Source of the DNA: an uncultured Clostridia bacterium
GTDB taxonomy: Bacteria > Bacillota > Clostridia > Oscillospirales > Ruminococcaceae
Assembly (NCBI GenBank): GCA_947627985.1
Contig: CANQYD010000006.1
Location: forward strand, 1-64,000
Length of the DNA: 64,000 nucleotides
Reading direction: 5' to 3'
A model generated the notes under the pieces. That model was not told the origin of the DNA and ran no database searches. It worked only from the letters and a program-made list of their open reading frames with translations. Shown here piece after piece: positions 24 through 63,290 of the stretch; within the stretch, counting starts at the first letter, position 1, and each line of letters starts with the position of its first letter. Both the position numbers and the translations under genes were made by a program.

Positions 24-260
24 CCGGCGAGGGTTCCCCCGATGAAAACAGTCCACCGGACTGTTTTCATTTTCCCCCATCCTGCGCTTATTGAATAAAA
101 AAGCAAGACGACGGCTTACGCCGTCCTCTTGCTTGAAGATTTCGCCCGTTGCGACGGGCGACCAAGGGCTCCGCCCTTGGAACCCGCAAGCCTTTTGAAA
201 AAGGCTCGATCGAAAACTTTCGCCTTGTCTTTCACCGGCTAAAGTACAGAATCTGCCTTC
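24..260 (-). repeat. Copy 1 of gene-3'-end hairpin array (modules alpha-beta-gamma-delta plus further hairpins), co-directional with the upstream AraC gene
   Basis: Hairpins at 187-208, 162-180 (CCAAGGGC/GCCCTTGG), 142-161 (TCGCCCGT-CGCA-ACGGGCGA on minus), 103-132 (GTAA loop on minus); same module order as 3707-3815. Confidence 0.75.
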
Positions 261-3658: not shown

Positions 3659-3683
3659 GGGAGATTCTGCGCTGACTATAAAT

Positions 3684-3945
3684 TTGAGACAAGTCAGGTT
3701 TAGGATCAAGCCCTTTTTAAAGGGCTTGCGAGGGTCTCGGGGGCAGAGCCCCCGAGTCGCCCGTCGCAACGGGCGAAATCCCCGCAAAAAGGTCAGCGAA
3801 AGCTGTCCTTTTTGCTTTTTATTTGCCTTTAAAGAGGACGACGAAGTCGCCCGAAGCCGGAGGGGTGTGGGGAACCCCGCAGGGGTGCCCCACAGCCGGA
3901 AAAGGAGTTGGGGAAAACCCGGCACGGGTTTTCCCCAACATAGTA
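3684..3945 (+). repeat. Copy 2 of gene-3'-end hairpin array
   Basis: Consecutive hairpins CAAGCCCTTT-TT-AAAGGGCTTG (3707-3728), CTCGGGGGC-AGA-GCCCCCGAG (3736-3756), TCGCCCGT-CGCA-ACGGGCGA (3757-3776), GCAAAAAGGTCAGC-GAAA-GCTGTCCTTTTTGC (3784-3815), then GTGGGG..CCCCAC and GTTGGGG..CCCCAAC. Confidence 0.8.
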
Positions 3946-3990
3946 TAGTGGTGTTGAAAGAAATTAATCAACGGTTTAATTATGGAACAG

Positions 3991-6517: not shown

Positions 6518-6577
6518 AATCAGAGGACAGATAGTGAGAGGGCAGAGGACAGATTTTGCACCCAGCCTTAACTGATA

Positions 6578-7150
6578 CAAGTCAAAAAGTTCGCCAGCCT
6601 TTCAAGGCTGCGGGGGTCTCCATTACATGCTGGTTTTGTAGCTGCTCGACTTCCCTCGGCGTAAACGCTCGCCTCGGTCGTCTTGCAGACAAAACCCCGC
6701 ATGTAAGGCAGAGCCCCCAAGTCGCTCACCGCAGTGAGCGAAATCCCCGCAAAAAGGACAGCGAGAGCTGTCCTTTTTGCTTTTACCGTTCAAAAGAGGG
6801 CGACGAAGTCGCCCGAAAGCCGGAGGGGTGTGGGGAACCCTGCAAGGGTGCCCCACAGCCGGAAAGGGGCATGGGGAAAACCCCGCAGGGGTTGTCCCCA
6901 AAAAACCGGCGACGAAGTCGCCCGGAGCCGAGCGAAGCGAGGCTCAAATGCCCCCTCTCCCTTGGGAGATGGGGGTATGACTTGCGCAAAAACTTGCTTA
7001 TCGCACTTCGCAATCGAAAACGCAAGATTGCTTGTGCTCTGAGAGTTTTTGTCGCAAGTCGGGGGGTGAGGGTAAAGCCCGGAAAGGGGTTTGGGGAAAA
7101 CCCCGCAGGGGTTGTCCCCATAGGTTTGCCGAGCGAAGCGAGGGAAGCTT
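6578..7150 (+). repeat. Copy 3 of gene-3'-end hairpin array, extended form with long-range stem
   Basis: TTACATGCTGGTTTTGT...ACAAAACCCCGCATGTAA; TCGCTCAC-CGCA-GTGAGCGA (6722-6741); GCAAAAAGGACAGC-GAGA-GCTGTCCTTTTTGC (6749-6780); ACTTGCGCAAAAACT...AGTTTTTGTCGCAAGT. Confidence 0.78.
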
Positions 7151-7200: not shown

Positions 7201-7990
7201 GCGCAAGGTGCGGTGCCTCTACCAACCCCTGATATGAGCAGAAGGGTAAAAGATTAAACTCTGACTTCTGCCTTCTAATCTCTGTACTCTGTGCGACCGG
7301 CGGGAGCACCGGGCGAAGCCCCTGCAGCCGAAGGCTGCGGCTGCCTCCGCTTCGCGGAGGCAGGAGCCGTGCTTCGCACGGCTGGGCTTCGCCCATACCC
7401 CCTGCTCCTACTGCACCTTGGCAGTATCGGCAAGCCCGGAACCAAGCTATCTGCCTTTTCCGAACCTTATGAGAAACAGAAGGCTTGTCACAAGGTCAGT
7501 GCCCCTACCAACCCCTGATATAAGCAGAAGGGTAAAAGATTAAACTCTAACTTCTTCCTTCTACCCTCTATCCTCTGTGCAACCGGCGGGGGCACCGGGC
7601 GAAGCCCCCGCAGCCGAAGGCTGCGGCTGCCTCCGCTCCGCGGAGGCAGGAGCCGTGCTTCGCACGGCTGGGCTTCGCCCATACCCCCTGCTCCTACTGC
7701 ACCTTGGCAGTATCGGCAAGCTCGGAACCAAGCCATCTGCCTTTTCCGAACCCTATGAGAAACAGAAGGCTTGTCACAAGGTCAGTGCCCCTACCAACCC
7801 CTGATATGAGCAGAAGGGTAAAAGATTAAACTCTGACTTCTACCCTCTACCCTCTACCCTCTATCCTCTGTGCAACCAACAGGGCACCGGGCGAAGCCCC
7901 CGCAGCCTTCGGCTGCGGCTGCCTCCGCTTCGCGTCGGCGGTCCCGCTTCGCGGGACGGGCTTCGCCCCCGTCCCCCCATTTTCCTAAAT
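7201..7990 (+). repeat. 286-bp tandem repeat, about 2.7 copies, each carrying a cloverleaf-like set of hairpins
   Basis: ACCAACCCCTGATAT at 7221, 7507 and 7793 (period exactly 286); third copy diverges after its 5' third. Confidence 0.85.
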
Positions 7991-28792: not shown

Positions 28793-29224
28793 ATGACGAT
28801 CCGTCAGATTTCAGTATTTTTGGAAAATCGTGCCGGGCAGCTTCGGGAGATCACCGGGGTGCTCTGCGACAGCCATATCAATTTGAGGGCGATAAGTATC
28901 GCCGAGACCGCGGATTACGGCGTTTTGAGGATCATAGCGGACGATCCCGCCAGCGCCTCCGAGAAGCTTTTGGAGCATGGGTTTATCCTGACGATGACCC
29001 CGGTCGTGGCGGTGGAGGTGCCGGATCAGCCCGGCGGGCTCAACAGCGTTTTGGGTCTGATTTCGGATTCCGGGATAGATGTTGAGTATATGTATGCGGT
29101 CTTAGGCGGCTCGAACGGCAAGGCGTATATGATATTTCGGGTCGCGGACGCGGAGAAGCTCTGCGAGGTGCTGGAGCAAAACGGGCTGAAATCGGTGCCG
29201 GGCGAAGTGCTGGGGGAGCACTGA
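28793..29224 (+). CDS. Tandem ACT domain protein
   Basis: ISVFLENRAGQLREITGVLCDSHINLRAISIAETADYGVLRIIADDP and a second ACT half. Confidence 0.9.
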   Translation: MTIRQISVFLENRAGQLREITGVLCDSHINLRAISIAETADYGVLRIIADDPASASEKLLEHGFILTMTPVVAVEVPDQPGGLNSVLGLISDSGIDVEYMYAVLGGSNGKAYMIFRVADAEKLCEVLEQNGLKSVPGEVLGEH

Positions 29225-29419
29225 GATCAGAAGGCAGAGGGCAGATGTCAGATGACAGAGGCGGGGGATTTTGCTCTCTGCGATTCAGATGGCTGACAGT
29301 GTGTAGAGGTTAGAAGATAGAGATTAGAAATCTCGTCCGACCTTAAGCGCGACAAGCCCGAGTAGAAGGCAGAAAACAGATGTCAGAGGTCAGATCCTGC
29401 ACATTACCTGCTAAAAGAC

Positions 29420-29585
29420 AAGGCAAGTTTAGGATCAAGCCCTTTTTAAAGGGCTTGCGGGATCCCATTACATGCTGGTTTTGTTCCTGCTCGACTTCCC
29501 TCGGCGTAAACGCTCGCCTCGGTCGTCTTGCAGACAAAACCCCGCATCTGCGGAAACCGCGCAACGGTGCCCCACAGCTGTCAAG
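29420..29585 (+). repeat. Truncated copy of gene-3'-end hairpin array (alpha module plus long-stem module)
   Basis: AGGATCAAGCCCTTTTTAAAGGGCTTG; ATTACATGCTGGTTTTGTTCCTGCTCGACTTCCCTCGGCGTAAACGCTCGCCTCGGTCGTCTTGCAGACAAAACCCCGCAT. Confidence 0.75.
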
Positions 29586-31479: not shown

Positions 31480-31532
31480 AAGTCAGAAATCAGAGGACAG
31501 AGGTCAGATTCAGCACTTTACCATCTAAGAGA

Positions 31533-31990
31533 CAAGTCAAAAAGTTCGCCAGCCTTTCAAGGCTGCGGGAGTCTTGATTACATGCTGGTTTTGTAACTGC
31601 TCGACTTCCCTCGGCGTAAGCGCTCGCCTCGGTCGTCTTGCAGACAAAACCCCGCATGTAAGGCAGAGCCCCTCGTCGCTCGTCGCAACGAGCGAAATCC
31701 TCAAGCAAGAGGACGGCGGAAGCCGTCGTCTTGCGATTATCGTTCAAAAGAGGGCGACGAAAGTCGCCCGAAGCCGGAGGGGCGTGGGGAACCCCGCAGG
31801 GGTGCCCCACAGCCGAGCGAAGCAAGGCAAAAAAGCCCCCCTCCCTTGGGAGATGGGGGTATGACTTGCGCAAAAACTTGCTCATCGCACTTTGCAATCA
31901 TAAACGTGGGATTGATCGTGCTCTGAGAGTTTTTGTCGCAAGTCGGGGAGAGGGTACGCCCGGGAAGGGGCAAGCAGAAGCCGGTTTTGT
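31533..31990 (+). repeat. Copy 4 of gene-3'-end hairpin array
   Basis: TCGCTCGT-CGCA-ACGAGCGA (31676-31695); GCAAGAGGACGGC-GGAA-GCCGTCGTCTTGC (31705-31734); long-range ACTTGCGCAAAAACT/AGTTTTTGTCGCAAGT. Confidence 0.78.
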
Positions 31991-46785: not shown

Positions 46786-46959
46786 TATTTAAGTCGTTGT
46801 TTATTTCCTTCCTACGCTACTACTATGTTGGGGACAACCCCTGCGTGTTCTTGTCTGCAAAACAACCGAGGTAATCGCTCAACAACGCGATTAAAACTCT
46901 TTGAGCCGACCGAGGCAATCGTTGCCGCTGAGGGAAGGCGAAAAGATAGTTTTAACGCT

Positions 46960-47075
46960 TTGTTTGCCGAAGGCAGTTGAGCAGGAACAAAACCGGAATG
47001 TAACGGAGACCCCCGCAAGCCCTTTAAAAAGGGCTCGATCCAAAACTTGACTTGTCTCAACTAAGGTTGGGTGCA
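46960..47075 (-). repeat. Truncated copy of gene-3'-end hairpin array on the minus strand
   Basis: Reverse complement: ATTCTGCACCCAACCTTAGTTGAGACAAGTCAAGTTTTGGATCGAGCCCTTTTTAAAGGGCTTGCGGGGGTCTCCGTTACATTCCGGTTTTGT. Confidence 0.7.
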
Positions 47076-62496: not shown

Positions 62497-63033
62497 ATGA
62501 AAAAGCTGATCTCACTGATTTTGGCAATCTGCACGCTCACGGCTATGTGCGCCTGCGCCGAGAAACTTCGGGAGATTTCACCCGATGAAGCGCGGGAGCT
62601 TGCAAACGGAGCGCTCATGCTCGAAGCGGTGCTCGACGGAGGTTCCCAAAACGTCTCGGGAGCCGGGATAGTCACCGAAAACGGCGAGGATTATGCGCCC
62701 GCCGAGGACCCGAAATATGCCGTTTGGAGCGATTTTGAGGCAGCGGTCAAAGATGTTTTTGATGATGATTATGCCTGCGCGCTTCTTTCCTCAGGCAGAT
62801 GCCTTGAAATGAACGGCTCGACCTACCTGAAATATAACGAAACAGACTCCGACCCGACCTACTCCGCCCTCAGCTTCGGCGATGTAGATATCGACCCCGA
62901 AAGCAACTCCGAGACCGCCGCCGGCACCCTCGCTCTCACCACCCCGACCGGCGAAAAAACGCTGTATATCGATTACGTCAATACCCCAAACGGCTGGAAA
63001 ATTGCGGGGATAGATTTTGGGGATTTAAGGTAA
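62497..63033 (+). CDS. Putative lipoprotein of unknown function
   Basis: MKKLISLILAICTLTAMCACAEKLREISPDEARELANGALML lipobox. Confidence 0.7.
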   Translation: MKKLISLILAICTLTAMCACAEKLREISPDEARELANGALMLEAVLDGGSQNVSGAGIVTENGEDYAPAEDPKYAVWSDFEAAVKDVFDDDYACALLSSGRCLEMNGSTYLKYNETDSDPTYSALSFGDVDIDPESNSETAAGTLALTTPTGEKTLYIDYVNTPNGWKIAGIDFGDLR

Positions 63034-63290
63034 ATAAGAGGCAGACTTATCTGCTCCGCCCTCAGCTTCGGCGATGTAGATATCTACCCCGAAAGCAACT
63101 CCGAAACCGCCGCCGGCACCCTCACCCTCGCCACCCCGACCGGCGAAAAAACGCTGTATATTGATTACGTCAATACCCCAAACGGCTGGAGGATTGCGGG
63201 GATAGATTTGGTGGATTGAAGGTCAATAAGAGGCGGGGTTATCTGCTCCGCCCGCAGCTTTGGTGATGTAGATATACCCTCAAAAAAGCA
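62863..63290 (+). repeat. 192-bp direct repeat, about 2.2 copies, derived from the 3' end of the preceding lipoprotein gene
   Basis: TCCGCCCTCAGCTTCGGCGATGTAGATATC at 62863, 63055 and degraded at 63247; equal spacing of 192. Confidence 0.88.

Follow-up and report, generated by a model that had tools for sequence, protein, structure and literature searches.

The hairpin array at positions 3686–3939 of contig C6 raises the question of whether the paired changes among its copies mark a structured RNA held by selection, or whether they arise in repeated DNA that moves and recombines. The contig is from G000, the 2.16-Mb draft genome of an uncultured Clostridia bacterium. The window is the whole 64,000 nt stretch of this contig that was analyzed. 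A first-pass annotation had called the array a candidate undescribed RNA family, with copies elsewhere in the window. The structure of the array, its distribution, the pattern of changes in its stems and its sites of insertion are considered in turn below.

Structure of the array in the window

The array at 3686–3939 (copy 2; 3680–3950 with margins) is on the plus strand. It opens with a leader, after which seven hairpins stand one behind the other. Alleles are counted over the own genome, G000, and each hairpin position is termed a slot:

3686–3707, plus strand: leader GAGACAAGTCAGGTTTAGGATC, present in about 65 genome copies
3708–3727, plus strand: slot alpha, hairpin of allele a1 AAGCCCTTTTTAAAGGGCTT; four alleles; the alpha helix covaries
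3736–3756, plus strand: slot beta, hairpin of allele b1G CTCGGGGGCAGAGCCCCCGAG; six alleles; the beta helix covaries
3757–3776, plus strand: slot gamma, hairpin of allele g1 TCGCCCGT-CGCA-ACGGGCGA; four alleles, with more in relatives
3784–3815, plus strand: slot delta, hairpin GCAAAAAGGTCAGCGAAAGCTGTCCTTTTTGC; five alleles; terminator-like with one T-T mismatch, followed by a T-run at 3816–3820
3836–3852, plus strand: slot epsilon, hairpin GGACGACGAAGTCGCCC; allele e1 in 41 of 54 copies
3867–3893, plus strand: slot zeta, hairpin GTGGGGAACCCCGCAGGGGTGCCCCAC; apex alleles CC, GT and AT; compensated changes
3907–3939, plus strand: slot eta, hairpin GTTGGGGAAAACCCGGCACGGGTTTTCCCCAAC; apex alleles GG, CC and TT

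The 262 nt sequence of copy 2 folds with a z value of -9.1 relative to dinucleotide shuffles. A GCGGGG/CCCCGC stem that would close over beta and gamma, considered by eye, was rejected as several alleles do not keep it. The leader is usually 10–130 nt from the end of a flanking gene (about 65 copies, own genome). The left and right ends of the element in G000 are not sharp. Degenerate AGAxGTCAGA-type repeats are present upstream of the leader, and more hairpin modules are found downstream of the quoted element. In many copies degenerate repeats of the AGAxGTCAGA type separate the gene end from the leader (e.g., 31480–31530 and 29200–29400).

Three other copies and two truncated copies are found in the window:

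98–230, minus strand: copy 1, with alpha a2, beta b2, gamma g1 at 142–161 and delta d2, from BLAST and slot parsing
6571–7150, plus strand (quoted core 6707–6901): copy 3, with gamma g3 at 6722–6741 and the beta slot disrupted by a nested module
31528–31990, plus strand (quoted core 31662–31815): copy 4, with gamma g4 at 31676–31695, in the gap between cgs and metA
29415–29570, plus strand: truncated copy, leader and alpha, then nested module
46840–47060, minus strand: truncated copy, leader and alpha (47060–47006), then nested module

All of the copies named in the annotation, four and two truncated, are thus present, with the leader and module order described there. The gamma alleles that it quoted, with an invariant CGCA loop, match the window sequence exactly: g1 in copies 1 and 2, g3 (TCGCTCAC-CGCA-GTGAGCGA) in copy 3 and g4 (TCGCTCGT-CGCA-ACGAGCGA) in copy 4. 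A fourth gamma allele, TCGCGCTC-CGCA-GAGCGCGA, occurs frequently at other places in the genome. The description in the annotation has to be corrected in two respects. Repeats flank the quoted element on both sides, as described above, and a nested module of about 100–150 nt (ATTACATGCTGGTTTTGT...ACAAAACCCCGCATGTAA) interrupts the beta slot of copies 3 and 4. The arms of this module are GGTTTTGT..ACAAAACC together with variable, complementary outer arms. Its sites in the window are 6617–6710, 29470–29560, 31580–31665 and 46850–46996, and in both the own genome and G022 it occupies the beta or the zeta slot of arrays.

The window also has tandem duplications at 7213–7862 (286-bp units) and 62859–63242 (192-bp units).

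Copy number, distribution and slot alleles

The array has many copies. Searched by BLAST with copy 2 as the query, the own genome yields 74 matches (E ≤ 0.001), which are ordered homologous copies with identities of up to 91% over about 250 nt. A covariance model of the alpha-beta-gamma part of the array (R1) gives at least 72 matches there, 72 being the number of scored candidates, with E-values down to 1e-24. Among the congeners, 11 species have 20–67 matches to this model and most of the others 0–2; copy-rich relatives include G022 (63 matches), G028 (67), G003 (32) and G010 (35). Of 298 genomes sampled from the order, 43 have one or more model matches; outside the order, a sample of 300 genomes from across the phylum shows a single marginal match. 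The named GTDB records that have the alpha hairpin are from Clostridia of gut and rumen, among them Candidatus Faecivivens (Oscillospiraceae). The repeat family is thus almost absent outside one order, which by these records is probably the Oscillospirales. A phage or plasmid origin was rejected, since phage, plasmid and viral collections searched with the array gave zero matches.

Comparison of the window with Rfam at the gathering threshold gives no matches, and the best sub-threshold E-value in the array region, 0.26, is at chance level. Searches of open-access literature found no relevant description of such a repeat family in these bacteria. Judged by this literature and Rfam alone, the family is real, abundant and apparently undescribed. 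In copy-poor congeners a different hairpin repeat with varying stems, CTCAGTC..GACAGCTCCCC..GGGGAGC, is found in the gap behind the cgs orthologue (stretches L151, L155, L156, L159, L162, L163 and L165).

In stretches of the own genome around the copies, 68 oriented arrays were parsed. Exact copies of an allele were found in 59 of these for alpha, 51 for beta and 65 for gamma. As read from the parsed arrays, the leader of a copy is followed by hairpin slots in a fixed order, and the stem in any slot comes from a small set of near-invariant alleles. In the 62 arrays that were fully called there are 36 distinct alpha-beta-gamma-delta combinations. Association is significant for the adjacent slots alpha-beta (p = 0.009) and beta-gamma (p = 0.0004) and is not significant for gamma-delta, also adjacent (0.38), or for alpha-gamma (0.45), alpha-delta (0.55) and beta-delta (0.18). 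At the level of sequence, alleles therefore combine almost freely between copies, with significant association between adjacent slots only. This is the pattern that would be expected of recombination or conversion over tens of bases.

Paired changes in the stems and insertion of the arrays

Covariation across paralogues and species, which the annotation had taken as support for its proposal, is found. When 77 sequences of six species are aligned with MAFFT, both sides are changed in 14 of 21 pairs, and the covariation score is 0.488 compared with 0.200 for shuffled and at most 0.137 for slid alignments. The gamma rows of this set (A1) were picked by near-complementarity, which inflates the gamma percentage; alpha and beta were picked otherwise. 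Another set (A3), drawn from additional genomes of the order and aligned to the covariance model, so that it is fitted to the structure, agrees (0.372 versus 0.122). By these alignments the stems keep their self-complementarity while their sequence is swapped.

Changes within allele groups of the array hairpins were pooled over six genomes and 6,284 pairs. Single changes number 36 and compensated doubles 34, and uncompensated doubles are absent; broken stems are undercounted, as the hairpin finder allows at most one mismatch. About 0.05 doubles are expected under independent mutation at the observed single rate. The 34 compensated doubles represent about 20 distinct changes, and alleles shared by recombination make the number of independent events smaller. 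They include A-T to T-A, A-T to C-G, C-G to G-C and G-C to T-A, changes that have no path through a G-U intermediate. Single mismatches are G-T and A-C in similar numbers (14 versus 12 in one count, 15 versus 9 in another), which gives little sign of wobble tolerance in a sense-strand RNA; with so small a bias, wobble was rejected as a mark of RNA-level selection. Variation is 1.2% in arms and 4.3% in loops, which is compatible with constraint. Loop inversion, a possible footprint of template switching, was not seen (0–1 inverted against 10–60 forward loops per module).

Template switching is described as a source of instantaneous compensatory changes (PMC8794818), and the hairpins of REPINs, which are mobile DNA, are reported to show compensatory changes as well (PMC3116915). 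Doubles about as frequent as singles, no uncompensated doubles and paths that avoid G-U are what template switching in DNA would be expected to leave. With these and with little excess of G-T over A-C mismatches, the paired changes are not a safe proof of a selected RNA. The annotation had regarded them as the classic sign of selected structure, and in this the data do not follow it. DNA copying between the arms looks to be at least as good a fit as a selected RNA gene. Quick compensation under selection could also make uncompensated doubles scarce, and the stable tetraloops, the conserved unpaired linkers and the terminator-like delta hairpin leave room for selection on RNA.

The positions of the arrays show insertion. 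In the own genome the cgs-metA gap is about 650 nt and has copy 4; in G022, G016, G018, G010, G017 and G007 there is no array in this gap, and the metA coding start is about 25–85 nt from the gene end. Similarly, G000 has an array behind a uronate isomerase-thioesterase gene pair, and it is missing in G004, G007, G016, G017 and G018. Because neighboring genes are conserved at both sites, the arrays are inserted DNA, shown by two syntenic sites in related species that are without them. A position conserved relative to particular genes was not found, as context differs between genomes and the arrays are species-specific at these two sites. With approximate gene calls from a simple codon model, array locations in G000 are convergent in 23 cases, divergent in 3 and tandem in 18, of which 11 are sense and 7 antisense. 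A co-directional gene ends upstream of 39 of 51 copies, with the stop codon within 65 nt in about half. Gene ends are the main context in G000 and G022; G017 copies are often in divergent intergenic regions.

By direct reading, delta is the only one of the first four slots with a T-run after it, and in most copies it has the form of an intrinsic terminator with an A-tract, GC stem, T-tract and T-run. The delta of copy 2, which has one mismatch, is missing from the output of a simple terminator scan, and the scan found no clear excess of terminators around this copy. At the thioesterase site, where G000 has an array, a plain terminator-like hairpin is present behind the gene in, e.g., G016, G017 and G020 (in G020 just 180 nt of the site are visible). 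Together with the form of delta, this suggests that the array may stand in for a terminator.

Arrays of G017 often form inverted pairs, and G022 has such pairs as well; these elements measure about 440–715 bp and end in AAAAGTTTTCG..CGAAAACTTTT. Most G000 copies are single. In G004, nearly identical copies are located inside a MITE with GGGAGTG..CACTCCC ends, and at least three of these MITE copies have 8–9 bp target duplications (AAAAGGATA, TGGTTTTT and TTTTCGCTA). G004 has 12 matches to the IS256-type transposase PF00872. A search of G000, G022 and G028 for PF00872 gave no match, and IS256-type mobilization was rejected as a general explanation. None of the copies in G000, G017 and G022 was seen inside an IS256-type MITE, and terminal inverted repeats with 8–9 bp target duplications were not seen for the window copies. 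No transposase or exact target duplication assignable to the G000 copies was found, and no autonomous element with a gene between two array ends was noticed among the listed hits. A repeat in the window beginning with GGGAGTGTACAAACCGCCCTC (7992, 16423, 16556 and 30000, plus strand) resembles an IS256-type end, and the array-carrying MITE of G004 is bounded by the same ends.

Interpretation and comparison with known systems

The array at 3686–3939 is probably a copy of a non-autonomous, interspersed mosaic repeat, i.e., mobile intergenic DNA, that is built of hairpin slots and is unnamed. The two arms of each stem would be kept matched mainly by hairpin-templated correction, that is, template switching at the stem in replication, and weak selection for the hairpins probably helps. 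The similar numbers of doubles and singles, the lack of uncompensated doubles and the non-G-U paths fit such correction combined with short-tract recombination. New stem alleles would spread among copies by short-tract ectopic gene conversion. The delta slot, with its GC stem, A- and T-tracts and the T-run that follows, could terminate transcription, so that an insertion behind a gene would do no harm or would even be of use. The spread of the repeat may depend on a putative enzyme acting in trans, and in the relative G004 copies would ride inside the IS256-like MITE. In a variant of this scheme that we consider rather doubtful, the stems would be exchangeable cassettes; both arms would be rewritten in single template-switch events and shuffled among copies, and the slot combination would be read by a factor of the host or element, e.g., a hairpin-binding transposase or an RNA-binding protein.

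Other explanations were weighed against the mosaic repeat. A selected structured RNA, consisting of transcribed 3'-UTR or non-coding modules with stems held by selection for RNA pairing, is unlikely. The strong covariation with both sides changed in most pairs, the z value of the fold, the conservation of loops and linkers and the frequent location shortly after the stop codon of a co-directional gene are all in its favor, but gene context is not conserved and divergent sites are common in G017. Sense and antisense tandem locations in G000 are also not far apart in number, G-T mismatches hardly exceed A-C, the insertions are species-specific and Rfam has no match. Thus the proposal of a candidate undescribed RNA family holds as to an undescribed family with many copies and covariation, but is not supported as to an RNA gene or riboswitch-like element, given inserted DNA and a context that is not conserved. 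Retention of a mobile array as a replaceable, bidirectional terminator block, in which delta and other hairpins end flanking transcription, is likewise improbable. The excess of convergent over divergent locations in G000, the terminator form of delta in most copies and the plain hairpins of G016, G017 and G020 agree with this, whereas alpha, beta and gamma lack a T-run, many G017 copies are in divergent regions, copy 4 separates cgs and metA, which are nearly adjacent in relatives, and the scan around copy 2 gives no clear terminator excess.

It is very unlikely that the arrays are REP/REPIN elements moved by a RAYT (REP-associated tyrosine transposase), even though they are intergenic, palindromic and present in many copies, form inverted pairs in G017, and show compensatory changes such as are reported in REPIN hairpins (PMC3116915). 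Two Y1-transposase genes are present in G000, one of them about 0.35 kb from an array (IS200-like element with a 149-aa transposase, L042:3140–3870, C5), but these appear to belong to an ordinary IS200-type element (149 aa) that has hairpin ends of its own. A search for the Y1 transposase (PF01797) gave no match in copy-rich G022, G028, G003 and G010, and RAYT/REPIN mobilization was rejected on this basis; membership in a REP-like family, which the annotation had named as evidence against novelty, is therefore not indicated. Perfect palindromes are common in these GC-rich intergenic regions, but an origin of the array by chance or low complexity has a negligible probability and is refuted by the genome-wide homology: the copies are ordered and closely similar, the covariance model E-values are very low and the family is nearly absent outside the order.

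Compensatory changes are the standard proof of a selected RNA structure. Here they are found in abundant, recently diverged paralogous hairpins in which doubles are about as frequent as singles. The array family can serve as a test bed for how far template switching, and not selection, yields compensatory patterns, and it calls for caution when covariation among mobile repeats is used to define RNA families. It is possibly an undescribed intergenic repeat of many gut Clostridia genomes, and of use in annotation and typing.

Rfam families are the natural home for a structured RNA, and the array matches none of these at the gathering threshold. It resembles REPINs and BIMEs with RAYT (PMC3116915, PMC2817692) in being extragenic, palindromic mosaic DNA with inverted pairs and compensatory stem changes, but it is much longer, has other ends, and is found in several copy-rich genomes that have no RAYT-type transposase. 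The G004 copies, in an element with GGGAGTG/CACTCCC ends and 8–9 bp target duplications, are like IS256 (Mutator)-type MITEs; the copies of G000, G017 and G022 differ in not being seen inside such an element, and G000, G022 and G028 differ in having no PF00872 match. BOX elements have a modular build. The BOX repeats of pneumococci are interspersed, structured and patchy between related species, and have been read as parasitic DNA that possibly affects co-transcribed genes (PMC3049150). The array is likened to BOX by description and not by sequence: both have ordered modules and are intergenic, dispersed and non-coding. Unlike BOX, the array has seven or more hairpin slots in succession, and the alternative stem alleles of each slot occur in almost free combination.
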